DNA from: a virus
Virus record (IMG/VR): IMGVR_UViG_3300037189_015081
Location: 1 to 64,000 of that record
Length of the DNA: 64,000 nt
Direction: 5' to 3' (one strand)
The notes under the pieces are model-generated. The model saw nothing but the letters and a program-made list of their open reading frames with translations, was not told where the DNA came from and ran no database searches. The first letter of the stretch is position 1; every line of letters starts with the position of its first letter. Both the position numbers and the translations under genes were made by a program. Of the stretch, positions 7,906-61,048 are shown one piece after another.

Positions 7906-8919
7906 ATGTTTATCACAATTGAAGGCACAGACGCCTCAGGTAAAACCTCTCTTATCGAGGCCGTAGCAACCGAGCTACGCACGCGCTACCCTGAACAGGA
8001 AATAACGCAGTTTCACAAAAGCAAACCAGAAGAACTAACACGCCGCTGGGTTCTAAACGACTACGTGAACTCGATCGAGGCGATCGACTGGTCTACGCGT
8101 GTAGCGCTCTCAGACCGCTGGCATTGGGGTGAAATAACATACGCGCCGAAATATCGACCGGCAACAAACAAGGACGGCTACGGTCTACTCGGCAAGGCTG
8201 GATGGCGCTGGGTCGAGCTCTTCATGCAGTCCCGCGGTATCGCGCAGTACTGGCTTTATCAGCCCCTAGATGTCATCGAGGCGCGCCTAGCGGCACGCGG
8301 AGACGAGTTCGTAAAGGTCGAAGACCTGCGCGAAATACTTGCCCAGTACGAGATCGCCAATCAGGTGTCAGTGATCCGTAGCAAGATTCAACCGCCAGCC
8401 GACAGCCTTGACAAAATCCCGTCCATCGCCAAACTTATCGTCGATGACGCGGAACAGGTTGCCGCGTGCGTCAAGCCGCTCTCTGCTTTTCCTTACTACA
8501 TCGGTGCGCACAAGCCGAAGGTTCTTCTCGTCGGTGACCGGCACAACGCGACCAAACGCTACGGCAAGGAAACCGATCTGCCGTTCATGCCAGTTGACGG
8601 TAATTCCGCAGAGTACCTGTTGAACTCCCTGCCCGGTGATCTCTGGAAAAACGTCGGTATCGTCAACATCAATGACGGGACAAACGCGGAATCCTTTGAG
8701 ACTCTCTGGAACGTTCTAGGAAAACCACCAGTCGTTGTGCTCGGGAGACTGGCCGAGAAAACGCTAACGCAGATGCTGTTTAGCCAAGATAACTACGTCG
8801 TGCTGCCTCACCCGCAATTTGTACGCCGATTTGCAAACAACCACCAATCAGAGTACGGCGATGCAATCGCACGACTCGCAACAACAATGGACAAGGAAGA
8901 CAAATGGATCCTGCGGTAA
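7906..8919 (+). CDS. Thymidylate-kinase-like protein fused to UDG-like domain
   Basis: 337 residues. Residues 1-180 form a dNMP-kinase-like P-loop domain with Walker A G-T-D-A-S-G-K-T at 7-14 and a lid-like arginine-rich segment (L-A-A-R-G-D-E-F) near 125. Residues ~195-330 resemble the uracil-DNA glycosylase superfamily: V-L-L-V-G-D near 205, L-P-F-M-P-V-D-G-N-S-A, V-N-I-N-D, V-V-V-L-G-R-L-A and a late L-P-H-P-Q motif. Kinases of this family make dNDP from dNMP. In a phage with a modified base they phosphorylate the modified monophosphate. The role of the glycosylase-like half is not clear, since the usual catalytic motifs are not all obvious. Its end overlaps the start of the thymidylate-synthase-fold gene, implying coupled translation. 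Confidence 0.7.
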   Translation: MFITIEGTDASGKTSLIEAVATELRTRYPEQEITQFHKSKPEELTRRWVLNDYVNSIEAIDWSTRVALSDRWHWGEITYAPKYRPATNKDGYGLLGKAGWRWVELFMQSRGIAQYWLYQPLDVIEARLAARGDEFVKVEDLREILAQYEIANQVSVIRSKIQPPADSLDKIPSIAKLIVDDAEQVAACVKPLSAFPYYIGAHKPKVLLVGDRHNATKRYGKETDLPFMPVDGNSAEYLLNSLPGDLWKNVGIVNINDGTNAESFETLWNVLGKPPVVVLGRLAEKTLTQMLFSQDNYVVLPHPQFVRRFANNHQSEYGDAIARLATTMDKEDKWILR

Positions 8920-9761
8920 TCAACATTCAAGACGGCGTCAACGGCTACGTTGACCTGGTCCAGCACGTGCTCGAACACGGCAAGGAGGTCGCGCCTCGCG
9001 GAATGAAAACGCGTGAGATCGAGGACGCGATTATCCGCATCGACGACGTGTACAACGCGCTGCCGCTTAACATTAATCGCGGAACGGTTCCAGGTATCGG
9101 TGCCGTCGAGGCAATGCAGCTTCTTGCCGGCGTCAGTGACCCTGAACTTGTCATCGCGGTAGGTCCACAGTTTAAGAACTACGCCGAGGACAATGGACAG
9201 TTCCACGGTGCGTACGGTTTGCGAACCGCTGGACAATACGAGGTTGTTGTCGATCGACTCAAGAACGACCCCGACACTCGACAGGCCGTTGTCACGATCT
9301 GGGATCCAAAGTTCGACACTCTCCCGGAGAAACGCGACTATCCGTGCACGGTACTGCACCAGTTCCGTATCCGCGACAACAGGCTCAACATGAGCATCTA
9401 CATGCGATCAAATGACGTATGGCTCGGTTCCGCGTATGACTTCTTCCAGTTTACCCGCGTACAGCTCGCAATCGCGTCCGTTCTCGGTATTGAACCTGGA
9501 ACGTACAACCACCACGTCGGGTCGCTGCACATCTATGAGCAGCACTATGACGTCGCTGATCGTCTCACCAAAACGGACGAGTACACGCGGGTACCATACA
9601 TCCAGGGATCAACCTGGAATGAGATTAAAACACAGGCGTTCCTGGCGCTTGAATCAGCCAAGAACCCAGAGCTACGCGGCGCTCTCACTGAGGACGCCGC
9701 GTGGTACGGTGACGCCATGCGAAACGCCGTGCTCAAGAACAAGGCCAAGGCGGAAAACTAA
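8904..9761 (+). CDS. Thymidylate synthase-fold protein, probable dCMP hydroxymethylase
   Basis: 285 residues. ThyA-family landmarks: Y-G-L-R near 104-107, D-T-R-Q-A near 124, catalytic Cys148 in Y-P-C, R-S-N-D at 168-171, L-G-S-A-Y-D at 174-179 and H-I-Y at 209-211. Aligning from Cys148 without gaps places Asp179 at E. coli ThyA Asn177, the residue that reads uracil. T4 dCMP hydroxymethylase has the same Cys148 and Asp179, and Asn-to-Asp changes in thymidylate synthase shift preference to dCMP. So the likely reaction is folate-dependent modification of dCMP rather than dTMP synthesis. ATG 8904 overlaps the kinase gene by 16 bases. Substrate preference is inferred from one residue; plain thymidylate synthase remains possible. 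Confidence 0.75.
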   Translation: MDPAVINIQDGVNGYVDLVQHVLEHGKEVAPRGMKTREIEDAIIRIDDVYNALPLNINRGTVPGIGAVEAMQLLAGVSDPELVIAVGPQFKNYAEDNGQFHGAYGLRTAGQYEVVVDRLKNDPDTRQAVVTIWDPKFDTLPEKRDYPCTVLHQFRIRDNRLNMSIYMRSNDVWLGSAYDFFQFTRVQLAIASVLGIEPGTYNHHVGSLHIYEQHYDVADRLTKTDEYTRVPYIQGSTWNEIKTQAFLALESAKNPELRGALTEDAAWYGDAMRNAVLKNKAKAEN

Positions 9762-9763
9762 AA

Positions 9764-10243
9764 ATGGCAATCGAGCGTCCTTCATGGGACACGGTGTGGA
9801 TGGACGTCGCGGAAACCGTGGCGCTCCGTTCGCGCTGCTCCCGTGCGCAGGTCGGGGCGGTTATCGTTTCACGCGAACAGCGCATTAGCGCGACGGGTTA
9901 CAACGGTCCCGCGGCAAACTGGCCCGAGCCGGGTGACTGTATTGACTGGTGCCCGCGTGCTCAAGGTAAGACGGCACTTGACAACACATATGACGCGTGC
10001 CCTGCGATTCACGCTGAGGCAAACGCGCTTCTGTACGTCGACCGTTCGCATGTTGAAGGCGGGACGATCTATGTCACCGGTGCGTGCTGCATGCAGTGCG
10101 CAAAACTGATCTCTAATTCTGGTATCGCAAAGGTTGTCATGAAGGTGCGCGACATTGATCTGCACCGTAAGCCAGAAATGGTCGTAGACTACCTTGTTAA
10201 GTGCGGGATCGATGTAACTTCTATCGGAGGAAACCCGCAATGA
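9764..10243 (+). CDS. dCMP deaminase
   Basis: 159 residues, the usual length for phage dCMP deaminases. The zinc site is visible: H-A-E at about residues 84-86 (catalytic Glu) and C-C-M-Q-C at about 108-112, a variant of the common P-C-x-x-C. The N-terminal R-S-R-C-S-R-A-Q-V-G-A-V-I-V segment is also typical. It converts dCMP to dUMP, feeding dTMP synthesis. It starts two bases after the previous stop and its TGA overlaps the ATG of the polymerase gene, so it is part of the same operon. If the preceding enzyme uses dCMP, the two would compete for substrate, as in T4, which also has both. Confidence 0.88.
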   Translation: MAIERPSWDTVWMDVAETVALRSRCSRAQVGAVIVSREQRISATGYNGPAANWPEPGDCIDWCPRAQGKTALDNTYDACPAIHAEANALLYVDRSHVEGGTIYVTGACCMQCAKLISNSGIAKVVMKVRDIDLHRKPEMVVDYLVKCGIDVTSIGGNPQ

Positions 10244-12063
10244 CAACAGGACCAATGACAGATGTCGAGCTAACGCTCGTCGACTCGACAGAGAAGGCGC
10301 AAGAGTTTCTGGCGTGGCTCAGCGAGCGTCGTCCATACAACGCGCTGGGAATCGACATCGAAACCGGTGAGAAGCCTGGTAACAATAAGAAGGACGCTTT
10401 CTCGCCATGGCATGGCGACATTCGTCTCGTCCAGGTTGGTGACTCTATGCACGGCTGGGCCATTCCCTGGGAGGAATGGGCTGGCGTGTTCTACGAGGCA
10501 ATGGAGAAGTTTGACGGCCCGATCGTCTGTCACAATATCGCCTTTGAAGCTCGCTGGTTTGACGTAAAGTCTCGCTGGAAGATGCCGTGGGAGCGCGCAC
10601 ATGACACGATGATCATGGCGCACATCATCGACCCGCTTGGTTCCGGTGCACTCAAGCAACTCGCCGCCCTACACGTCGACGGTCGCGCGGTCGCGCTGCA
10701 AAGCACGCTTGACCAGGAGTTCGCAAAGAACGGCTGGACGTGGGGAACGGTTCCTATTACCTATCAGCCATACTGGGCGTATGGCGCGCTCGACACGGTT
10801 TTAACCATGCGCCTGTGGGAACAGTTCTGGGAAAAGTGCGGACCAAACGGGCCGTATAGCCGACCATACGAATTGGAAATGGCTACGCGCAAGATCGTTA
10901 CGCGCATGGAGCTCAATGGTGCGCGTATCGACCTGGACTACTCGCGTAAGAAGTTTGATCAACTCACCGAGTACGCGGAGTCCGTAAAAGTCTGGGCTGC
11001 ACAAAACTACAATGGTGCGTCGATCACGAGTAACATTCAGCTTGTGCGGCTGTTCCAGGACCTTGGCGCAGAGATCACGTCCTTTACCCCGAGCGGTCAA
11101 CCATCAGCCGACAAGGACCAGCTTAAGTATCTTGCCGCTGAAGGTAATGACGCGGTGCGCCAACTTGCCGAGGTCGTGTTGAAGCAGCGCAAGGCAGACA
11201 AGCTAGCCAACACATACTTCAAGAACTTCCTTGAGGACAACATCGGCGGGTTTGTTCACCCGTCCGTCAAGACGCTTGGCGCACGTACGTCGCGTATGTC
11301 TATTACCGCGCCCGCGCTACAGACACTGCCTAAGGGTGACGACGTTGTGCGCCGTGCGTTCCTGCCTAAGGACGAGGATCACGTCATTATCACGTCCGAC
11401 CTCGACCAGGTCGAGTTCCGCATGTTTGCGTCACTGTCTAATGACCCTAACCTGATCAGTCTGTTCCACAAGGCGGACGCGACTGGTTCTGATCCGTTCA
11501 CGGAGATCGGTCGCGAGATCTATCAAGACCCGACGATGCAGAAATCGGACAAGCGTCGTAATCTCATCAAGGGAACAGTTTATGGTCGCCTGTACGGTGC
11601 TGGAGTTTCCAAGCAGGCAATCACTGCTGGCGTGGCAAAGAGCCAGATGCAGGCGGTTTCCGACGCGTTTGACACACGCTACCCGGGAATGGCCATGTTC
11701 CAGAAGCAGATTGAAGATACTGGGATGCGTCGTTTGCGCTCTGAAGGACAGGGCTACGTGAACACGTGGACTGGTCGTCGACTCCCATGTGACGAGGATC
11801 GCGTATACACGCTGGTGAACTATCTCATTCAGGGTGGTGCTGCCGAGGTTTTCAAGTCTAATCTTGTGAAGCTTGACCAGGCTGATCTGACTGAGCTGCT
11901 TATCGTTCCAGTGCACGACGAAATCGTGCTAAACGCTCCGCGTAAGGACGCACAGGAGATTATGAACATAGTGCAGCAGTGCATGACAACAAGCGAGGGT
12001 TGGCAGGTACCACTTACTTCTGGTATCGACGGTCCTCTTGAAACGTGGGGAGACAAGTACTAA
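10240..12063 (+). CDS. Family A DNA polymerase with 3'-5' exonuclease domain
   Basis: 607 residues from ATG 10240, preceded by CGGAGG. Residues ~30-200 are a proofreading exonuclease: G-I-D-I-E (Asp39, Glu41), C-H-N-I-A-F-E and Y-G-A-L-D-T. The polymerase has motif A S-D-L-D-Q-V-E-F-R (catalytic Asp387), motif B R-R-N-L-I-K-G-T-V-Y-G (Lys444, Tyr448) and motif C V-H-D-E (Asp560). No 5'-3' exonuclease domain is present, as is normal for phage versions. Tyr448 occupies the position of E. coli Pol I Phe762, as in T7 polymerase. It replicates the phage genome together with the helicase, primase and nuclease genes nearby. It overlaps its neighbours by a few bases on both sides. Confidence 0.93.
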   Translation: MTTGPMTDVELTLVDSTEKAQEFLAWLSERRPYNALGIDIETGEKPGNNKKDAFSPWHGDIRLVQVGDSMHGWAIPWEEWAGVFYEAMEKFDGPIVCHNIAFEARWFDVKSRWKMPWERAHDTMIMAHIIDPLGSGALKQLAALHVDGRAVALQSTLDQEFAKNGWTWGTVPITYQPYWAYGALDTVLTMRLWEQFWEKCGPNGPYSRPYELEMATRKIVTRMELNGARIDLDYSRKKFDQLTEYAESVKVWAAQNYNGASITSNIQLVRLFQDLGAEITSFTPSGQPSADKDQLKYLAAEGNDAVRQLAEVVLKQRKADKLANTYFKNFLEDNIGGFVHPSVKTLGARTSRMSITAPALQTLPKGDDVVRRAFLPKDEDHVIITSDLDQVEFRMFASLSNDPNLISLFHKADATGSDPFTEIGREIYQDPTMQKSDKRRNLIKGTVYGRLYGAGVSKQAITAGVAKSQMQAVSDAFDTRYPGMAMFQKQIEDTGMRRLRSEGQGYVNTWTGRRLPCDEDRVYTLVNYLIQGGAAEVFKSNLVKLDQADLTELLIVPVHDEIVLNAPRKDAQEIMNIVQQCMTTSEGWQVPLTSGIDGPLETWGDKY

Positions 12064-12518
12064 TGCGCGCAATCCTAGCAGTGGATCCAGGTAAGGCAAC
12101 TGGAATGGCGTTGTTCACCAAGCAGCCAAATGAGGAACCTGTTCTCGTATGGTCGATCGAGGTGCAACAGCACGAGTACGCTCAGCCGATTAGGCAGACG
12201 CTTGCGCAGTACCCAGACGCCGAGGTCGTGTGCGAACGGTTTACCATCAACGCGCAGACCGTCAAGAACTCACAGGCACCGTTCTCTCTTGAGCAGATCG
12301 GTATCCTTAAGCAGTGTCTCCTCGATGTCGGGCGTTCAGCTGATGACGTGTATTTCCAGTCACCGGCTGACGCCAAGGCGATGTTTCCTAACCCGGCGTT
12401 GAAAAAACTTGACTACTGGCATAAGGGCGGAGAAGGACACGCCATGGACGCAATCAGGCATGGCATGTTGCGTTTTGTAAAAACGGGATGGAAGCCTGTC
12501 CGCCTGCTTCAAGAATAA
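12063..12518 (+). CDS. RuvC-like Holliday junction resolvase
   Basis: 151 residues, ATG 12063 overlapping the polymerase stop (TAATG). The RNase H fold is shown by A-V-D-P-G-K-A-T-G at about 5-13 (first catalytic Asp), V-V-C-E-R-F in the middle (catalytic Glu) and G-H-A-M-D-A-I-R-H near residue 127 (last acidic residue). It would resolve recombination or replication branch points before packaging. An upstream in-frame ATG inside the polymerase gene is less likely. Confidence 0.85.
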   Translation: MRAILAVDPGKATGMALFTKQPNEEPVLVWSIEVQQHEYAQPIRQTLAQYPDAEVVCERFTINAQTVKNSQAPFSLEQIGILKQCLLDVGRSADDVYFQSPADAKAMFPNPALKKLDYWHKGGEGHAMDAIRHGMLRFVKTGWKPVRLLQE

Positions 12519-12523
12519 AAACA

Positions 12524-12571
12524 GGTACTAAGCAGAAAAAGTGATTTATTCTGCAAAAAACCTGATAGTAT
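12524..12571 (+). promoter_or_regulatory. Promoter with GGTACTAAGC operator-like site
   Basis: Intergenic region before the SNF2 gene. GGTACTAAGC at 12524-12533 matches the motif repeated five times at 59.4-59.55 kb. GCAGAA (12531-12536) and TTCTGC (12549-12554) form an inverted repeat. TGATAGTAT at 12563-12571 is an extended -10 (the same string precedes the gene at 62703). The GGTACTAAGC site lies just upstream of the expected -35 position, a good place for a repressor or activator. Confidence 0.5.
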
Positions 12572-12601
12572 TAGAAACATAAAGACGAAAGGACGGTGTT
12601 C

Positions 12602-14407
12602 ATGCACGCAAACGTAGAACTCGACGACACGGGTAAGAGCATCATTATTGACACCGACTGGCGGTTCAAGGAGCTCTGCAAGAGTCTCCCCGGTGCCAAG
12701 TGGGATCCTAAAACGCAGCAATGGCGTGTACCCACGTCGTGGGCGACATGCCTCGCCTTGCGCTCAACGTTCCGCGAAGATCTCACCATTGGACCTGGAC
12801 TTGCCGCTTGGGCGGCCAATGAGCGCGCAACGCGTGTCGACCCGGCCAATGCGTTTCGTGGTCTTGAGACGGCCGAGGACGCCTCTAATGAGGACCTGTT
12901 CCCGCACCAACGCGCCGGGGTCCAGTTTCTGCACACCGCGCGACGTGCCCTGCTCGCTGATGAGCCCGGTCTCGGTAAAACCGCGCAGGCAATCCGTTCA
13001 TTGAAGAAGTTCGCCGACAATGATGAGACGCCGTTCCCCGCGCTTATTGTTTGTCCAAACACGCTTAAGAAAAACTGGGCACGTGAGTTCGGTCGCTGGT
13101 GGCCAGAAGCAAAGGTAACCGTTATCAAGGGTTCAGCTGCTCAACGACGCCTTCAATTCGAGGATGGCGCCGATGTCTATGTGATCAACTGGGAATCGCT
13201 GCGTTCGCACTCGCGCTTGGCGCCGTACGGCTCAGTTGCTCTTGCTCGCTGCGTATCCTGCGGCGGTCATGACGAGAAGATCACGGAAAACCGTTGCGAG
13301 GTTCACCTGCGCGAACTAAACAGTATTCAATTCAAGGCCGTCGTTGCCGATGAGATTCACCGTTCAAAGGATCCAAAAAGCAAGCAGTCACGCGCGCTGT
13401 GGGCTGCAACCGGTGACGCGGATATTCGCTTTGCCTTAACTGGTACACCAATCGCAAATAACGTCATCGACCTGTGGGCAATCATGCACTGGTTGTCACC
13501 GGAAGAGTGGCCAAGTAAGACGCGCTGGATTGACCGCACGGTCGACACGATGATGAACGCTTTTGGTGGAATGCTTGTCCTGGGTATCAAGCCAGCCATG
13601 CAATCCGAGTTTGACGCGACAATCAACCCGCGTATGCGGCGCATGCTCAAAAAGGTCGTGCTGCCCTGGCTACCAGACATGATGTTCGAGCGTCGCGACG
13701 TTGAGATGTCGACAAAGCAGGCAAAGGCGTATAAGCAGATGCGCGATCTAATGATTGCCGAGCTCGACGGAAGCGACGCGCTAACCGCGCCTAGCGCGCT
13801 GACGCAGACAACGCGTCTACTGCAATTTGCGAGCGCGTACGCTGAGATCACGCTCGACGAGTCAACGGGTGAGCAACAGGTAAAGCTTACGGCGCCATCG
13901 TGCAAGGTTGACGCGCTCATGGACGACATAAAGAACGGCGACTTTGGTGACGACTCAGTCGCCGTGTGCGCAGTTTCACGTCAGCTCATCGAGATCCTGA
14001 GCGCCGAGCTGACAAAGGCTAAGATTCCGCACGGGTTGATCACCGGTGCGCAAACGGAGGACGAGCGCCAACAGGCCGTTGACGACTTCCAGTCCGGTAA
14101 GACAAAGTGGGTATTGTTCACCGCGCAGGCTGGTGGTGTTGGTATCACACTGACTGCGGCACGACGACTCGTCATGCTGCAGCGCCCGTGGTCACTTGTT
14201 GACCACAAACAGGCACTTGATCGCGTGCACCGTATCGGCTCAGAAATCCACGAGTCCATCATCGTGACAGACTATGTTACCGAGGGAACAATCGAGGAGC
14301 GCGTCATCCAGGTTCTAGAAACCAAGGCTGACAACTTTGAGCAGATCGTACGCGACCGCGATCAGTTGCTTGCACTACTAAAAGACGACAAGGCAGGTAA
14401 GCTCTAA
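12602..14407 (+). CDS. SNF2-family helicase
   Basis: 601 residues; ATG 12602 is preferred over the GTG at 12596 because AAAGGA is well spaced for it. Motif I is D-E-P-G-L-G-K-T (from Asp120), motif II D-E-I-H (from Asp250), motif III L-T-G-T-P-I, and the C-terminal lobe has A-G-G-V-G-I-T-L and the R-V-H-R-I-G motif VI, which place it in the SNF2 group of superfamily 2. A C-x-x-C pair (C-V-S-C-G-G) sits near residue 220 between motifs I and II and could hold zinc. Phage members of this family act in replication-fork remodelling or recombination. The stop overlaps the next ATG (TAATG). Confidence 0.9.
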   Translation: MHANVELDDTGKSIIIDTDWRFKELCKSLPGAKWDPKTQQWRVPTSWATCLALRSTFREDLTIGPGLAAWAANERATRVDPANAFRGLETAEDASNEDLFPHQRAGVQFLHTARRALLADEPGLGKTAQAIRSLKKFADNDETPFPALIVCPNTLKKNWAREFGRWWPEAKVTVIKGSAAQRRLQFEDGADVYVINWESLRSHSRLAPYGSVALARCVSCGGHDEKITENRCEVHLRELNSIQFKAVVADEIHRSKDPKSKQSRALWAATGDADIRFALTGTPIANNVIDLWAIMHWLSPEEWPSKTRWIDRTVDTMMNAFGGMLVLGIKPAMQSEFDATINPRMRRMLKKVVLPWLPDMMFERRDVEMSTKQAKAYKQMRDLMIAELDGSDALTAPSALTQTTRLLQFASAYAEITLDESTGEQQVKLTAPSCKVDALMDDIKNGDFGDDSVAVCAVSRQLIEILSAELTKAKIPHGLITGAQTEDERQQAVDDFQSGKTKWVLFTAQAGGVGITLTAARRLVMLQRPWSLVDHKQALDRVHRIGSEIHESIIVTDYVTEGTIEERVIQVLETKADNFEQIVRDRDQLLALLKDDKAGKL

Positions 14408-15348
14408 TGGCAACCGAATACCCTATCCGCGTATCAAACTCGGAGCTACAAACATTCAAGGACTGTCGTCGACGCTGGTGGTTGAACTACTACCGTCGTT
14501 TGCGACCACTGCAGGAAAATAAGACCGGTGCACTTGCGCTCGGCTCGCGCGTGCACAATGCGCTTGACATGTACTATTCGCAGGGCGTACCTCTTCTTGA
14601 AGCGCACAAACACTTCCTTGACATTGACCGTGCTAATCTTGAGGCGGCGTTCCAGGACACGTCCGATCTCGACACCGAGGGAGAACTCGGGCGTATCATG
14701 CTTGAAGGATACCTTGAATGGGTCGAGGAAAACGGTATTGACGCTGAACTAGAGATGATCTCCACCGAGGAGATTATCGAGATGCCGCTACTCGACGGCA
14801 AGGTTATCCTTCAAGGCAAGATCGACATGCGCGTTCGCCGGAAGGCAGACGGCGTTCGAATGTTCCGCGACTTCAAGACCGTTGGTGGTTCATTCACGGA
14901 CTTTACCGCCCTGGCCCACATGAACGAGCAGATCCTTACCTATATGATGCTCGAGGCTGCACAGAACAAGGACGGCGAGCGCTCAGAGGGTGGTATCTTT
15001 ACCATGCTCAAGAAGGTGAAGAGATCCGCTAATGCCCGTCCGCCTTTCTATGAGCAGATGGAAGTTCGTCATAACATTTTCGCGCTACGCAACTTTTGGC
15101 AGCGTATTCACGGTACAATTACTGACCTGGTAAACGTCCGTGACGCGCTTGATGAAGGAGCTAATCACCAGTTTGTAGTCTATCCGCGTCCGTCGCGTGA
15201 CTGCAAATGGAAATGTCCATTCTTTGCTGTTTGTCCTTTGCTCGACGACGGTTCCGCCGGTGAGCAGGCGATCAGCGAGTCGTATCGGGTCGCCGATCCG
15301 TACGGGTACTACAACAACAACACCGAAGAGAAGGGAAGTGAGATTTAA
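14407..15348 (+). CDS. Cas4/RecB-like PD-(D/E)XK nuclease with Fe-S cysteines
   Basis: 313 residues. N-terminal V-S-N-S-E-L-Q-T-F-x-D-C-R-R-R-W-W is the classic start of the family. The nuclease core is G-K-I-D-M-R followed by D-F-K-T, giving the D...D-x-K active site near residues 140-158. Cys20 and C-terminal Cys266, Cys270 and Cys276 are arranged like the 4Fe-4S cluster of Cas4/AddB-type nucleases. It lies between the SNF2 helicase and the Sak4-like ATPase, the usual actinophage recombination-replication order. Confidence 0.88.
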   Translation: MATEYPIRVSNSELQTFKDCRRRWWLNYYRRLRPLQENKTGALALGSRVHNALDMYYSQGVPLLEAHKHFLDIDRANLEAAFQDTSDLDTEGELGRIMLEGYLEWVEENGIDAELEMISTEEIIEMPLLDGKVILQGKIDMRVRRKADGVRMFRDFKTVGGSFTDFTALAHMNEQILTYMMLEAAQNKDGERSEGGIFTMLKKVKRSANARPPFYEQMEVRHNIFALRNFWQRIHGTITDLVNVRDALDEGANHQFVVYPRPSRDCKWKCPFFAVCPLLDDGSAGEQAISESYRVADPYGYYNNNTEEKGSEI

Positions 15349-15350
15349 CT

Positions 15351-16100
15351 ATGGCAAACCAAGTTCAACGATCACTCACCATCATGGTGTACGGAGAGTC
15401 GAAGGTCGGTAAGTCGACATTCGCAGTAACCGCACCATATCCCCGTCTCATGCTCGACGTGGAAGGCGGTCACCGCTTCCTTCCAATCAACGTCAAGTAC
15501 TGGGATCCACTTCGTGAGGAGCCGCCGCAGGCGGATGGCACATGGGACACAGTTGTCGTCAACGTTCGTGATTACGAAGTTGTCGTCAAGGCGTTCCAGT
15601 GGCTTCAGAGCGGTAAGCACCAGTTCAAGTCCTTGATCATTGACTCCATCTCGGAGCTCCAGGTTAAGTGCATGGACAGCATCGCCGGTAGCGAGCAAAT
15701 GAAGATGCAGCAGTGGGGCGAACTTCTTCGCCACATGGGTGCGCTTCTTCGCGATCTTCGCGATCTCACGATGCACCCGACACAGCCGTTGGAGGCGGTT
15801 GTCCTTACCGCAATGGCTCGACCTGGACAGGACGGTCGCATGCGTCCGTACCTTCAGGGACAGCTCGCGATTCAGGCACCGTACTTCTACGACATTCTTG
15901 GCGCCATCAACGTCGAGACCGTACCAAACCAGGACCCGATGCAGCCGCCTCACAAGGTGCGCCGCATGTATGTCGAACGCACTGATGACTATGAAGCAGG
16001 CGAGCGCGTGCAGGGACGTCTTGGTAAAATCGTTGAGCAGCAGGACCTCGGGGTTGAACGCATGCTCGACATGATCTTTGGTCCCAAGGCCGAAGGTTAG
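15351..16100 (+). CDS. Sak4-like RecA-family ATPase
   Basis: 249 residues. Walker A G-E-S-K-V-G-K-S-T at 15-23, Walker B-like S-L-I-I-D-S-I-S near residue 95. The short RecA-like core with Y-G-E-S-K-V-G-K-S at the very N-terminus is characteristic of the phage Sak4 single-strand annealing group. It sits directly before a DUF669-like ssDNA-binding protein, a common pairing in which the binding protein stimulates the annealase. It starts three bases after the previous stop, with GGAAG upstream. Confidence 0.82.
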   Translation: MANQVQRSLTIMVYGESKVGKSTFAVTAPYPRLMLDVEGGHRFLPINVKYWDPLREEPPQADGTWDTVVVNVRDYEVVVKAFQWLQSGKHQFKSLIIDSISELQVKCMDSIAGSEQMKMQQWGELLRHMGALLRDLRDLTMHPTQPLEAVVLTAMARPGQDGRMRPYLQGQLAIQAPYFYDILGAINVETVPNQDPMQPPHKVRRMYVERTDDYEAGERVQGRLGKIVEQQDLGVERMLDMIFGPKAEG

Positions 16101-16155
16101 CAACACAACATCCCGACCAAGGTGGTCGGAGCGATGAAAAATAAGGAGAAATACC

Positions 16156-16722
16156 ATGAGCTCACTCAACTGGGGTGACCTTGTAAAGGACGCAGGAGAC
16201 GTAGGAAGCTACGAACCTCTGCCCGATGGTGACTACGACCTCGTAGTTGTCGAGGCAACCGCCAAGACTGCACAGTCTGGCAAGACCATGTTCGCTATCA
16301 AGGCGCAGGTGCAGAACGGACCACACGCGAAGCGTCTGGTTTGGGACAACCTCGTTGTAACACCCGACAGCCCTGGTGCTCTCGGAATGTTCTTCCGCAA
16401 GATGGCCGGTCTCGGTCTGAACCGCGAGTTCTTCTCGCAGAACCCGTCAAACGCACAGATCGAGGCTGCTCTCCAGCAGCGTCCATTCCGTGCCCAGATC
16501 GGTTCGCGCGTCTGGAACGGCTCGAAGAAGAACGAGATCAAGATGTACTACGTCGCTAACGCGGCTACCGCATCTGCGGCGCCTGTCGCTGCTGCTCCGG
16601 CACCGGCGCCTGCGCCAGCTCCGGCACCAGCTCCAGCAGCGCCGATCGCTGAGGCTCCTGCTGCAGCGGCGCCTGCGCCAGCTCCGGCACCAGCTCCAGC
16701 TGCGCCTGCTGAACCGTTCTAA
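16156..16722 (+). CDS. DUF669-like ssDNA-binding protein with Ala-Pro tail
   Basis: 188 residues. Residues 1-130 resemble DUF669 proteins (L-P-D-G-D-Y, G-x-x-M-F-A-I-K-A, R-L-V-W-D-N-L), which are OB-like ssDNA-binding partners of Sak-type annealases. Residues ~133-185 are almost only Ala and Pro, encoded by tandem GCGCCTGCGCCAGCTCCG-like repeats, and the protein ends A-E-P-F. This resembles the flexible linker plus terminal P-F tip of SSB proteins, which recruits replication partners. A strong AAGGAGA ribosome binding site precedes the ATG, fitting high expression. Confidence 0.72.
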   Translation: MSSLNWGDLVKDAGDVGSYEPLPDGDYDLVVVEATAKTAQSGKTMFAIKAQVQNGPHAKRLVWDNLVVTPDSPGALGMFFRKMAGLGLNREFFSQNPSNAQIEAALQQRPFRAQIGSRVWNGSKKNEIKMYYVANAATASAAPVAAAPAPAPAPAPAPAPAAPIAEAPAAAAPAPAPAPAPAAPAEPF

Positions 16723-16796: not shown

Positions 16797-18008
16797 ATGA
16801 AAATCCTTATGACCGGATTCACGGCTCTTCAAATCAACAGCGAGAAGCGCGTGATCCAGAAAATTGACGTCCCAGCGTTTATCGCCAAGGCCCTTACAGA
16901 ACTAGGGCACGACGTGGACTGGCGTCGCGTGGAAACTGGCGAGGATCTCTCTGGTTACGATCTTGCCTGGGTAAACCTTGCACCACTGCACTCATTGAAC
17001 GGTCGCCAAGGCGCGATGGGTTCACTCTATACTTTGTCGTCAGGTATTCCGTGCGTCGGATTCTTTGACGACTGGCAGTTCAGCGCCGTGTTCAATGGCG
17101 CAAAGGCTCTTGTCCGTAAACCAAGTATTCTCTACAAGCACCTGCTCGTAGGAACCGAACATCGCGGCGAAGAAGGCGCGACGTACTTTAGTCGCAAGGA
17201 CATCGAGGAAGCTGTTGCGCGCATCGCGGAAAAGGATCCTGTAGCCGCGAAGAAGTGCACCATTGAGCGTTACTACATGCTCGACACTGACGAGAAGATC
17301 GAACCGTACGAGAAGCAACTCGTGCAGGCCGCTGAAGACTTCCTGAGTGACCGTTGGGCAGCAGGCATGGTTCCAGTTTGCCCGATGTACTCGTTCGGTG
17401 ATCGCGCTGGCGTGCGCAAACGCATGCCGAAAGGTGTTGGCCCGATCGAGGCGCTTGATCCGTCCGCTGTCGTCAACGACACGCTTAACGCGGTAACGCC
17501 TGCCAAGCCTGAAGAAAAGGCACGAGGATGGGTACTAGGTGCGCTCATGCCGCATGATACCTGGCTTGAAAAGAAGAATCCGGCATGGCCAGTTGAAATT
17601 GTCGGTAGTCGCAAGCTTATTCGCAAGATGGGCGGTCAGCGCTTCGGCACCGAGCAAGAGGTTCTTGAGTTCTACAATAAGTACTGGGGAATCATGTCCC
17701 CGCCGTACATGCATGCGGGTTCAGGCTGGTGGCGCTCGCGTTTTATCTATGCCGCGCATATCGGGTCTGTTCTCATCACTGACAAGGGTGAAGGCGATCC
17801 ACTAGGTGACCCGTACAGGCTCACCATCAGCGACGTAGAGGCAATGGACCAGGCGCAACTGGCTGCCGCTGCGCAAGCACAACGCGATGCACTGATGCCA
17901 CTTCTTGGAACATACGATCAGTTCAAGGCACATGTTGAACGAATCGTCGACCGTGCCATCGCCGAGGACAAGGGTCTTAAACTGAACGCGGACGGTTCAC
18001 GCGCATGA
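16797..18008 (+). CDS. GT-B-like glycosyltransferase 1, possible DNA glycosyltransferase
   Basis: 403 residues. The N-terminal Rossmann-like half has M-K-I-L-M-T-G-F, A-L-T-E-L-G-H-D-V-D and G-F-F-D-D-W at 88-93. The C-terminal half has G-W-V-L-G-A-L near 245, V-E-I-V-G-S and W-W-R-S-R at 311-315 followed by I-G-S-V-L-I-T-D. The order and spacing resemble T4 beta-glucosyltransferase (its catalytic F-T-D-I-R and its R-V-W-E-T-M ... V-M-L-I-D segment), although sequence identity is low and the T4 Glu272 position is Tyr here. It is paralogous to the next gene. AGGA precedes ATG 16797. Neighbours (next GT, NTP pyrophosphatase, hydroxymethylase-like gene) suggest sugar transfer to modified DNA. 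Protein or cell-wall glycosylation is the alternative. Confidence 0.55.
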   Translation: MKILMTGFTALQINSEKRVIQKIDVPAFIAKALTELGHDVDWRRVETGEDLSGYDLAWVNLAPLHSLNGRQGAMGSLYTLSSGIPCVGFFDDWQFSAVFNGAKALVRKPSILYKHLLVGTEHRGEEGATYFSRKDIEEAVARIAEKDPVAAKKCTIERYYMLDTDEKIEPYEKQLVQAAEDFLSDRWAAGMVPVCPMYSFGDRAGVRKRMPKGVGPIEALDPSAVVNDTLNAVTPAKPEEKARGWVLGALMPHDTWLEKKNPAWPVEIVGSRKLIRKMGGQRFGTEQEVLEFYNKYWGIMSPPYMHAGSGWWRSRFIYAAHIGSVLITDKGEGDPLGDPYRLTISDVEAMDQAQLAAAAQAQRDALMPLLGTYDQFKAHVERIVDRAIAEDKGLKLNADGSRA

Positions 18009-19036
18009 GTAACGTACTTATTACCGGCATGACCGCGTCCCACACATCCGAGGCAACCAATCAGCGCGCACTATCATTCGCTGGCGTAGTTGCCAAGGCG
18101 CTAGCGAGTACTGGTCACACGGTGACAATAAGCGCGCCCGACATGCGGTGGACGCTTGATGAACTAGCCCGCTACGACTCTGTCATCGTCGGGATCGCGC
18201 CTCTCACGAGTGTCACCGCGAGTAACGCGTATGGCGGGTTGCACGTCATTGACCTGCTATGGACGGATCCACGGCTAACGCTTATGGTTGACGCGCCACG
18301 CCCAGTGCAGATTGGCGCCAGCCTGCGCTCGATTATCGGAACACCGGATAACCTTGTAAAACCGTTTTACTCTAAGCGACGCGGATACAGTGTCGCGGCG
18401 GAGAAGGAGACATCCGCGCGTCTTCTTGAAACAACGCGCAGACTGCTAGAGGAGGAGTGGCCAGCAACTATCTACCCGTCGCTGCCGTGGCACGACGCGG
18501 AAGCTATGCGGGCTCAGTTCCCAGACGGAACCAAGACTCTCTACGGCGTAAATCTTGACGCCTTTCTTGTCTCCGGTGAACCTCCTCGATGGGATAAGAC
18601 AACCGCCAGTTGCTGGGTTGCTGACGATCCTAAAGCCGCGTGGATCCAGAAGATCGTTCCAACAATCGGAGACGAGGTTGCCCCGATGAAGAACGACTCG
18701 TGGCAAAGTGACGATGACGTAGACAAGCGGATTGGCGAGTCACGTGGATCACTTATCACATCCCACCGGGAAGGAACCTGGTGGACGTACCGTATCATCC
18801 AGTCACTAAACAATGGCACGCCGGTTGCGACTGATTGGCGTGAGGCAAGTATCATTGGTTCTTCGTGGGGAATTCTTCCATCCGCAATAGAATCATTGTA
18901 TGGCCGCGACATCGAGAACCTTGCATGGAATCAATTAGATGAGTACATGCAGCACATCCCGTCACGTGACGAGGCTGGCAAGGCGCTAAAAACAATCATC
19001 GGAAGCGACAGTTCAAAACGAAAGGCAAGTAAATGA
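18005..19036 (+). CDS. GT-B-like glycosyltransferase 2, paralog of preceding gene
   Basis: 343 residues; ATG 18005 overlaps the previous TGA by four bases. Same layout as its neighbour: N-terminal V-L-I-T-G-M-T, A-L-A-S-T-G-H-T-V, R-Y-D-S-V-I-V-G-I-A-P-L, L-M-V-D-A (Asp96, matching Asp91/92 of the neighbour), then C-W-V-A-D near 203 and W-W-T-Y-R at 259-263 followed by G-T-P-V-A-T-D. The two proteins have diverged strongly, so they may add different sugars or act in sequence, as the alpha and beta enzymes do in T4. Function is inferred from fold-like motifs and context. Confidence 0.52.
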   Translation: MSNVLITGMTASHTSEATNQRALSFAGVVAKALASTGHTVTISAPDMRWTLDELARYDSVIVGIAPLTSVTASNAYGGLHVIDLLWTDPRLTLMVDAPRPVQIGASLRSIIGTPDNLVKPFYSKRRGYSVAAEKETSARLLETTRRLLEEEWPATIYPSLPWHDAEAMRAQFPDGTKTLYGVNLDAFLVSGEPPRWDKTTASCWVADDPKAAWIQKIVPTIGDEVAPMKNDSWQSDDDVDKRIGESRGSLITSHREGTWWTYRIIQSLNNGTPVATDWREASIIGSSWGILPSAIESLYGRDIENLAWNQLDEYMQHIPSRDEAGKALKTIIGSDSSKRKASK

Positions 19037-19518
19037 CACTATTTGGATCCTGGCTTGGCGACACCCGCAAGCTCCAGGAAGAAGGATTCAAGATCGACTA
19101 CGCGGCGATGACAGGTGATGAACCTGAAAAGATCAACGCGCTGATCGAGTATATTCGCTGGAACATGCTGGCAATCGACGATGAAATGGCTGAGATGCGT
19201 CAACCTATTTCGTGGAAGCCGTGGCAACACGACATGCCGTACGCTGACCGCGAGGAAGTTATCAAGGAGGCCGTTGACGTTCTGCATTTCGTGGCAAACA
19301 TCATTGTCGCCTGCGGCGGAACGGACGAGCAACTCAATGAGTTCTACTCGGCAAAGATGGAGAAAAACCGCCAGCGCCAGCTCAAAGGGTACGAGGTAAA
19401 GGCCGCCGGAGTAAAGTGCACGATCTGTACGCGAGCCATTGATGACGTGGGGGCTGGACGCACCGAGGGCGTCTGCGCCAAGTGCGAGCCGGTCAGCGAG
19501 GAGAACGGCAATGCCTAA
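19033..19518 (+). CDS. MazG/dimeric dUTPase-like NTP pyrophosphatase with zinc ribbon
   Basis: 161 residues; ATG 19033 overlaps the previous gene by four bases. The all-alpha NTP-PPase motif E-x-x-E ... E-x-x-D is present at Glu51-Glu54 and Glu79-Asp82, followed by F-Y-S-A-K-M-E-K-N-R-Q-R-Q-L-K-G-Y, typical of dimeric dUTPases. T4 dCTPase-dUTPase (gp56) belongs to this superfamily. A C-terminal zinc ribbon (Cys129, Cys132, Cys148, Cys151) is an added domain. The likely reaction is hydrolysis of dUTP and/or dCTP to the monophosphate. Tight coupling to the two glycosyltransferases favours dCTP removal in a cytosine-modification pathway, but ordinary dUTP clearance is equally allowed by the motifs. 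Confidence 0.75.
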   Translation: MTLFGSWLGDTRKLQEEGFKIDYAAMTGDEPEKINALIEYIRWNMLAIDDEMAEMRQPISWKPWQHDMPYADREEVIKEAVDVLHFVANIIVACGGTDEQLNEFYSAKMEKNRQRQLKGYEVKAAGVKCTICTRAIDDVGAGRTEGVCAKCEPVSEENGNA

Positions 19519-34454: not shown

Positions 34455-35513
34455 ATGAAGGTTGCCGTTTACACCATCGCTCTAAATGAGGCGGCGCATG
34501 TTGAGCGCTGGTACGAATCTTCACGTGACGCTGACTATCATCTGATTCTCGACACTGGATCCACAGATGACACGGTACAGATCGCTCGTGATCTCGGGAT
34601 AACCGTACTCGAGGCACGTGTTTTTCCGTGGAGATTTGACCTGGCTAGAAACACGGCAATGGCGCTGTTGCCGAGCGACATTGACTACTGCGTCTCAATG
34701 GACATGGACGAGATTCTTATGCCAGGGTGGCGTTCTGAATTAGAAAAGGCGTATGAGGCAGGTGCAACACTTGCACGGCTAATGTTTACGTTCTCCTTTA
34801 ATCCAGACGGTACTCCAGGGTTTCAGTTTGGCGCAAGCCGTATTCACGCTAGAAACGGTTACATTTGGAAGTACCCGATCCACGAGGTGATAGCGCCGTA
34901 CCAGATTGAAGAGAAGCAGTTCTGGACTGGTATAGAAATGCAACACCACCCGGACAGGACAAAGTCTAGAGAACAGTACATGCCCATGCTCGAGGCTGCG
35001 GTACGGAGTGACCCGCTAGATGCACGCCTCTCCTTCTACTATGGTCGTGAACTTATGTATCACGGCAGGAACCGCGAGGCGGTACAGGAGCTGGAGCGAT
35101 TCCTGTCTCTCCCAACAGCAACATGGGTTGGTGACCGATCCGATGCCATGCTCTACATATCAAAGTGCGTCGCTGACCCGGTCGAGGCTCGCCAATGGGT
35201 GTCGATGTCTATCCGAGAAACACCTGATAGACGCGAAGGGTACGTTCGCATGGCGCTACTGTGCTATCACTCTGGAGAGTACCGTGAGGCTCTGAACTAC
35301 GCCGAGCGCGCGATAGCCATAACTGATAGACCGCTACAGTACATGTGCGAAGAATGGGCGTGGAACTGGGAGCTATGGGACGTGGCCGCGATCTCAGCCT
35401 GGTGCATTGGTGAAAAGGAAAAGGCCGTACAGTACGGAGAAATCGCACTGGATCTCGGGCCGCATGTTCCACGTCTACACGAAAACATGAAATACTACTC
35501 GGGTAAGGTCTAG
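34455..35513 (+). CDS. GT-A glycosyltransferase with TPR-like C-terminus
   Basis: 352 residues. N-terminal family 2-like domain: T-I-A-L-N-E, L-D-T-G-S-T-D-D-T and D-M-D-E (metal-binding DxD) near residue 82. The C-terminal 170 residues contain TPR-like helix pairs (L-S-F-Y-Y-G-R-E-L-M-Y-H-G-R, A-L-L-C-Y-H-S-G-E-Y-R-E-A-L-N-Y-A-E). Such enzymes glycosylate proteins or surface polymers. Lying just before the fibre array, it could modify tail fibres or host wall sugars. It has its own start after the terminator hairpin. Confidence 0.82.
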   Translation: MKVAVYTIALNEAAHVERWYESSRDADYHLILDTGSTDDTVQIARDLGITVLEARVFPWRFDLARNTAMALLPSDIDYCVSMDMDEILMPGWRSELEKAYEAGATLARLMFTFSFNPDGTPGFQFGASRIHARNGYIWKYPIHEVIAPYQIEEKQFWTGIEMQHHPDRTKSREQYMPMLEAAVRSDPLDARLSFYYGRELMYHGRNREAVQELERFLSLPTATWVGDRSDAMLYISKCVADPVEARQWVSMSIRETPDRREGYVRMALLCYHSGEYREALNYAERAIAITDRPLQYMCEEWAWNWELWDVAAISAWCIGEKEKAVQYGEIALDLGPHVPRLHENMKYYSGKV

Positions 35514-60187: not shown

Positions 60188-60405
60188 TGGTACATGAGAT
60201 AAGAAAAATCCGTGACGGGTTATCCGCGTGCCCATGGTGGGTAAAAATCGTTGTCGCGCTCGGTATCCTGTACCTGCTAAACCCGATCGACCTGATCCCA
60301 GACTTCATACCAGTAATCGGAGTAATGGACGACGTCGCACTCGTCCTGGTACTCTCAAACCTAGTGAGGAAATATGCTGACACCAAAGATGCAACAAAAC
60401 TTTGA
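60187..60405 (+). CDS. DUF1232 (YkvA-like) membrane protein
   Basis: 72 residues from ATG 60187 (TAATG overlap). Y-L-L-N-P-I-D-L-I-P-D-F-I-P-V-I-G-V-M-D-D is the DUF1232 signature, with flanking hydrophobic helix. Function of the family is not known. It overlaps the next gene by 32 bases. Confidence 0.85.
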   Translation: MVHEIRKIRDGLSACPWWVKIVVALGILYLLNPIDLIPDFIPVIGVMDDVALVLVLSNLVRKYADTKDATKL

Positions 60406-61048
60406 CGTGCTAATCGCAACACCAGGAAGAATGCTGCACGCCGAATACGTGCAGTCCCTTGTCGAAACCTGTGCAGCACTCGACCAGCAACACATCACAT
60501 ACAAGTTCCTGAACAAATACTCGAGCCTTGTTGCGTCCGCTCGTGAACTCACAATCCTGGACTCGTACTCACATGAGTACGGACGGGTCAATGAGGTTGC
60601 GTCCGGGAAATACAAGTACAAGAAGATCATGTGGATCGACTCGGATATCTCATGGGAACCGCACGAGTTTCTGAGACTCTACCAGAGCGACAAGGACATC
60701 ATCGGTGGACTCTATCAGACGGGTCCAGACGGAACGGTCGCCGTGTCAATGAACGACAAAAACGGGAACCCGAGATTTGTGAACAAGAGCGAGTTCATCC
60801 TTGACGCTGAACCGATCAAGGTAGACGGGTTAGGTTTCGGCTTCCTGTGTGTCGGTGCAGGTGTCTTTGAAAAGATGCAGCGACCATGGTTCAAGACGAG
60901 AACAATGCAGTGGCCGGACGTTCCATACGAGACTGATATGGGTGAGGACTACTCCTGGTGTGTTGGCGCCAAGGATGCTGGTTTCGATATTTGGCTCGAC
61001 CCGCTTGTGAATGTTGAGCACCACAAGGAAACCATCTACATGATATAA
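60374..61048 (+). CDS. GT-A-type glycosyltransferase
   Basis: 224 residues. I-M-W-I-D-S-D-I-S-W near 88-97 gives the DxD motif, followed by G-G-L-Y and a late E-D-Y-S-W-C segment, like Anp1-type and phage family 2-related enzymes. Substrate unknown. Among early-type genes, it could act on DNA, host targets or phage proteins. Confidence 0.72.
   Translation: MLTPKMQQNFDVLIATPGRMLHAEYVQSLVETCAALDQQHITYKFLNKYSSLVASARELTILDSYSHEYGRVNEVASGKYKYKKIMWIDSDISWEPHEFLRLYQSDKDIIGGLYQTGPDGTVAVSMNDKNGNPRFVNKSEFILDAEPIKVDGLGFGFLCVGAGVFEKMQRPWFKTRTMQWPDVPYETDMGEDYSWCVGAKDAGFDIWLDPLVNVEHHKETIYMI

Follow-up and report, generated by a model that had tools for sequence, protein, structure and literature searches.

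Two adjacent genes in a 64,000-nucleotide stretch of viral DNA (positions 1 to 64,000 of the IMG/VR record IMGVR_UViG_3300037189_015081, hereafter the window), GT1 (16797..18008, plus strand, 403 amino acids) and GT2 (18005..19036, plus strand, 343 amino acids), probably encode nucleotide-sugar-dependent DNA glycosyltransferases of the GT-B type that modify hydroxymethylcytosine with an action like that of T4 β-glucosyltransferase (BGT), a reading to which we assign a probability of roughly 0.8. It builds on homology, predicted fold, conserved residues and gene context, all established computationally.

From these data we infer the following substrates and order of steps. A pyrophosphatase (19033..19518, plus strand, 161 amino acids) would convert deoxycytidine triphosphate (dCTP), and likewise deoxyuridine triphosphate (dUTP), to the monophosphate. 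Deoxycytidine monophosphate (dCMP) would then be turned into 5-hydroxymethyl-dCMP by an enzyme resembling T4 gp42 (8904..9761, plus strand), and a kinase (7906..8919, plus strand) could phosphorylate this product for incorporation. After replication, GT1 may move a sugar from a uridine diphosphate (UDP)-sugar to the hydroxymethyl oxygen of the DNA cytosine, while GT2 could modify the remaining sites or add a second sugar. The outcome would be DNA with glycosylated cytosine that resists nucleases and is probably hidden from bacterial defences.

A first-pass annotation of this DNA had described three open reading frames overlapping by four bases each, with two paralogous glycosyltransferase-like genes whose products share a W-W-x-x-R motif and an Asp at the position of BGT Asp100, and had proposed that all three proteins are made together. 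The frames indeed overlap at 18005–18008 (GT1/GT2) and 19033–19036 (GT2/pyrophosphatase), and, judged by their sequences, GT1 and GT2 are true paralogues: blastp aligns them with an E-value of 5e-7 (20% identity over 401 amino acids), and a profile–profile comparison gives a probability of 100% and an E-value of 4.5e-48 over 332 columns. The motif holds as well, since WWRxR is present in all 80 close GT1 relatives, and among 26 diverse GT1 and GT2 sequences W312 and the motif Arg vary little or not at all. Joint production is well supported for GT1 and GT2: among 74 scored relatives from viral contigs, 67 retain the ATGA overlap of the two genes. For the pyrophosphatase it becomes an operon-level statement only, because its junction with GT2 varies: the four-base overlap recurs in only 7 of 68 relatives, the others ranging from −8 to +17 bar one mis-scored locus. 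This variability qualifies the coupling to the pyrophosphatase, which the first-pass annotation took as its pointer to a role at DNA bases, and the sugar need not be glucose.

The predicted structures point to T4 BGT. AlphaFold models, built from alignments of 29 (GT1) and 36 (GT2) sequences, reach confident mean predicted local distance difference test scores of 83.5 and 91.2, respectively. A VIA-align comparison with the PDB, of the kind suggested at first pass, finds T4 BGT to be the best match of both GT1 (Z 18.1, root-mean-square deviation 4.0 Å, 302 aligned residues) and GT2 (Z 18.1, 3.6 Å, 297 aligned residues), with T4 α-glucosyltransferase (AGT) below it (Z 15.7); the top five PDB entries found by Foldseek for GT1 are likewise all T4 BGT (best E 5e-7). 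The same GT-B arrangement extends over about 300 residues. In line with this, a profile of GT1 and GT2 aligns along its full length with a BGT family profile made from seven BGT-family proteins (E 7.9e-7, 315 colinear columns), compared with control values of 0.075 for thymidylate synthase, 0.31 for a methyltransferase, 0.53 for a reversed profile and 0.23 for the best of 30 column shuffles. The family alignment is required for this signal: profile comparisons with the single sequences of T4 BGT, AGT or RB69 ORF003c gave none, and profile searches of PDB sequences returned chance matches only. The WWxxR arginine (GT1 Arg315, GT2 Arg263) aligns with BGT Arg269, which we take to contact the UDP diphosphate, and the predicted Asp was found as an invariant residue at BGT Asp100 (GT2 Asp96; GT1 Asp91, or Asp92 by the GT1/GT2 alignment, a register ambiguity of one residue).

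The decisive context for the acceptor of GT1 and GT2 is provided by a key neighbour, the thymidylate synthase superfamily enzyme at 8904..9761 (PF00303, E 2.5e-28). In T4 gp42, to which it is 29% identical over about 150 residues, the nucleophile is Cys148, the choice of cytosine depends on Asp179, and Asp171 takes part in a water network at the folate site (PMC6400193). Residue comparison places Cys148 (Cys148-Thr), Asp171 and Asp179 of the window enzyme at the gp42 residue numbers, and its relatives carry the same residues, whereas a T5-like thymidylate synthase and that of SBSphiJ7 have Asn at the position of Asp179. Gly175, an equivalence that we take from Gly173 of the E. coli thymidylate synthase, is likewise in place, the local sequence reading MRSNDVWLG. 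In RB69 ORF048c-type enzymes, which belong to a 5-hydroxycytosine pathway (PMC13390438), the specificity Asp is retained, but every example compared has lost Asp171 and Gly175 and reads MRSQN or MRSNN instead. Since the gp42 residues are kept, true thymidylate synthases have Asn and the ORF048c types lack Asp171 and Gly175, the window enzyme has, by its residues, the pattern of a dCMP hydroxymethylase and not that of a true thymidylate synthase, and its activity is predicted accordingly.

The other nucleotide enzymes fit the same scheme. The pyrophosphatase is an all-α nucleoside triphosphate pyrophosphohydrolase of the dUTPase_2 family (PF08761, E 1.1e-10, above the curated cut-off) and kin of the T4 gp56 dCTPase/dUTPase family, with the motifs IDDE, WK-W and E..D..HF aligned; it differs from gp56 by an extra C-terminal Cys-rich stretch. 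The kinase, whose gene overlaps that of the hydroxymethylase by 16 bases, resembles thymidylate kinases (phrog_761, E 8e-14) and is a candidate 5-hydroxymethyl-dCMP kinase. T4 makes 5-hydroxymethyl-dCTP with a gene set of this kind, i.e. a dCTPase, a hydroxymethylase and a deoxynucleoside monophosphate kinase (PMC2993671), and its BGT is likewise accompanied by the gp42-type and gp56-type enzymes.

Homologues of GT1 were found in Gordonia phages, the Actinomycetia phage DSL-LC01, Aeromonas and Stenotrophomonas T4-like phages, Erwinia phage FBB1, two Caudoviricetes records and phage C48C1. Nearly every genome tested among these has a thymidylate synthase superfamily enzyme with the gp42-type Asp; this is a tally over the genomes tested, with no probability attached to the association. 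The Asp-type enzyme stands alongside the GT1 homologue in DSL-LC01, the Gordonia phages Mareelih, GMA2, GodonK and Sixama, Aeromonas phiAS4, Erwinia FBB1 and MW202657, and eight viral contigs (G002–G009) show the same pairing. The sole near-full-length exception is C48C1 (Kyanoviridae), which has no thymidylate synthase match. Its GT1 homologue is preceded, with a four-base overlap, by a TET/JBP dioxygenase gene and followed by a gene for UDP-galactopyranose mutase (L155:1586–5033), apparently another way to obtain a hydroxymethylated base. A search of 84,980 bacterial and archaeal genomes detected only one GT1 relative, in a phage-like contig of a Bacteroidetes metagenome-assembled genome (UBA4009), where a gp42-type hydroxymethylase, a dCMP deaminase, the GT1 homologue and a UDP-galactopyranose mutase are encoded close together (L124:6144–10090). 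The upstream gp42-type enzyme and this co-occurrence, across unrelated phages, of distant GT1 homologues with enzymes that form hydroxymethyl-pyrimidines support the initial preference for a DNA-base role over cell-wall sugar transfer.

GT1 further matches phrog_14998 (E 4e-14), a family from Aeromonas T4-like phages with no assigned function, which the phiAS4 gene matches over its full length; the phiAS4 member adjoins a UDP-galactopyranose mutase gene. Aeromonas phage 25 carries genes 42 and 56 without a known glucosyltransferase, a question raised in 2010 (PMC2993671). It encodes a GT1 homologue and, by synteny with phiAS4, an adjacent probable UDP-galactopyranose mutase (L160:1932–4113). 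This pair, for which the annotation notes no conservation in phage 44RR2.8t, forms an exchangeable sugar module beside motA.

Several observations weigh against an assignment of GT1 and GT2 as hydroxymethylcytosine glycosyltransferases. The Foldseek ranking for GT2 is headed not by BGT but by a phage HY126 glycosyltransferase, a tetrahydrobiopterin glucosyltransferase and T4 AGT, in this order. SenB (by a margin of about 1) and other non-DNA GT-B enzymes lie within 1 to 2 Z of BGT, so that the fold alone is no proof of a DNA acceptor and the modelled likeness to BGT is supportive, not conclusive. Both proteins are only 10–12% identical to T4 BGT, from which they also differ as tandem paralogues of a family that is often mutase-linked, and BGT Glu272, presumably a ribose contact, is replaced by Tyr318 in GT1 and Gln266 in GT2. 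Pfam yielded no match for either protein at E-values up to 10, PF09198 included (the T4 BGT control matches this model at 9e-98), and NCBIfam, whose failure also counts on this side, and PADLOC returned nothing for them. Because they fail the PF09198 model, GT1 and GT2 are filed outside it and treated as a new family, BGT-like in fold and presumably in mode of action. A distant, partial GT1-like match of 59 residues in Vibrio phage 6E35.1a (L123:5386–6309) comes from a genome whose sole thymidylate synthase superfamily enzyme is a true thymidylate synthase, and this relative may therefore act on another base; its gene lies near queC and nicotinamide phosphoribosyltransferase genes. Finally, full cytosine replacement is hard to reconcile with a C5-cytosine-methylase-like gene that occurs in most relatives, albeit not in the window or in L002.

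The RB69-type arabinosyl-hydroxycytosine pathway resembles the proposed one in being cytosine-directed and in comprising two transferases, a dCTPase and a kinase (PMC6024577, PMC13390438), the latter thymidylate-kinase-like in RB69-like phages as in the window. The acceptor could hence be 5-hydroxycytosine from an RB69-type 5-hydroxy-dCMP synthase, with the two transferases building up from one sugar to two in the manner of the RB69-like arabinosyltransferases, and by blastp the window enzyme is about equally similar to RB69 ORF048c (4e-16) and T4 gp42 (9e-14). Yet this is unlikely, since ORF048c and its relatives from Acinetobacter, Tenacibaculum and Rhizobium phages lose the folate-site equivalents of Asp171 and Gly175, both of which the window clade keeps as gp42 does. 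Moreover, ORF003c shows no significant similarity to GT1 (E 0.28), and the sugar-nucleotide genes of RB69 differ from the GT1-linked UDP-galactopyranose mutase. A place for GT1 in the RB69 arabinosyltransferase pathway had been the initial idea and was dropped on the comparison of the synthase residues.

GT1 and GT2 might instead glycosylate a cell-wall or surface glycan of the host, for superinfection exclusion or receptor masking, with the mutase as a cell-wall auxiliary gene. Published accounts of DSL-LC01 (PMC10611076) and Atu_ph04 (PMC6630229) assign the mutase to the cell wall, and many GT-B enzymes of cell-wall pathways, such as PimA and TarM, are structurally close. We nevertheless regard this as very improbable: the GT genes sit within a replication and nucleotide operon in about 70 contigs, where GT1, GT2 and the pyrophosphatase gene follow in conserved order after the polymerase, RuvC, helicase, Cas4-like, RecA-like and SSB-like genes; the distant homologues track enzymes that form hydroxymethyl-pyrimidines, including TET/JBP in C48C1, in phages of both Gram-negative and Gram-positive hosts; and the best structural match is BGT, with no chromosomal homologues found in the 84,980 genomes. 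Little credence is likewise given to 5-hydroxymethyluracil or another non-cytosine base as the acceptor. Structural matches in BFVD do include the transferases of Bacillus phage SP-15, which we take to act in hypermodified-thymine DNA, the partial Vibrio relative has queC nearby, and thymine or methylcytosine could be the substrate of the C48C1 dioxygenase. Against this stands the cytosine-specificity residue of gp42, Asp179, which is Asn in enzymes acting on deoxyuridine monophosphate (dUMP) and is kept as Asp in every D-type enzyme of the family.

With hydroxymethylcytosine as the preferred acceptor, a hint at the sugar donor comes from UDP-galactopyranose mutase, which adjoins the GT1 homologue in DSL-LC01, phiAS4, FBB1, C48C1 and the loci L092–L096, L101, L103 and L124, and is missing in some close relatives of the DSL-LC01 GT1 (L090, L091, L097–L100). 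As a repeated neighbour, it suggests a UDP-furanose donor, which is plausible for the GT1 family at large. The 116,681-base virus record of which the window is a part gave no match to GLF (PF03275), for which control genomes did give matches; a furanose donor is thus unproven here, and the phage would need a nucleotide sugar of its host. Tentatively, the family may put a furanose (galactofuranose or arabinofuranose, from a dedicated mutase) on hydroxymethylcytosine in DNA, with GT2 adding a second, fast-changing layer, a trait that would be common to actinophages, Aeromonas and Erwinia T4-like phages and at least one cyanophage-like virus. No description of a furanosyl-hydroxymethylcytosine DNA modification was found in the literature, and novelty is claimed cautiously; a 2025 preprint by Lee et al., reportedly on glycosylated 5-hydroxycytosine across a range of viruses, may overlap with this finding in part.

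Conservation of the gene block is measured here as identity to the window sequence. GT1 has relatives of 71–89% identity in 79–80 viral contigs. No gene of the block is less conserved than GT2, whose median identity is 43% versus 74% for GT1 and 49–90% for the others. Between DSL-LC01 and the window, the neighbouring genes of the block are about 50–83% identical, but GT1 and GT2 only 29–30%, as if the sugar module had been exchanged. The fast evolution of GT2 and the DSL-LC01 pattern would be in keeping with an arms race centred on the sugar layer. GT2 relatives were detected only in actinophages, and scans of viral contigs with GT2 or the DSL-LC01 GT2 as single sequences found nothing. In Gordonia phages (L082:16762–18003 and Gordonia relatives), the homologues of GT1 and GT2 are separated by a third gene, annotated as a glycosyltransferase and without a Pfam match. 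L081 (20082–21326) and 69 other loci carry, downstream of the GT genes, the C5-cytosine-methylase-like gene (PF00145), in which the catalytic PPC is kept and E[CS]V replaces ENV.

Between the hydroxymethylase and GT1, the window encodes on the plus strand a dCMP deaminase (9764..10243; PF00383, E 6e-20), which may supply dUMP for thymidylate synthesis by the host, and a replication block (10201..16722) of DNA polymerase I, RuvC-like, helicase, Cas4-like, Sak4/RecA-like and SSB-like genes, whose order is kept in relatives. ThyX was searched for in the record without a match, while control genomes gave matches; a TET/JBP search also gave none, but neither did its control genomes, so that this result carries no weight as an absence. 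The remainder of the record holds mostly apparent virion and packaging genes. The host is likely actinobacterial, because the record contains a WhiB gene and shows close synteny with DSL-LC01; a search for an exact match of the phage tRNA-Thr, as a means of host identification, found nothing. Three more glycosyltransferase-like or unknown proteins are encoded near virion genes (window 34455–35513 and 60374–61048, and L087:1360–1965): a GT2-family protein with TPR repeats and members of phrog_1574 and phrog_24091, all apparently unrelated to the DNA pathway.

Taken together, the kind of pathway proposed here is already known from T4, while GT1 and GT2 appear not to have been recognised previously as DNA-sugar transferases. 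Their assignment would extend T4-style cytosine hypermodification to actinophages and gives a concrete, testable role to phrog_14998, an uncharacterised family whose members are mostly annotated as "hypothetical protein". For Aeromonas phage 25, the GT1 homologue and the probable mutase gene offer a candidate answer to the question of its glucosyltransferase. The UDP-galactopyranose mutases of such phages, in turn, may be reinterpreted as likely suppliers of sugar for DNA instead of host cell-wall genes.

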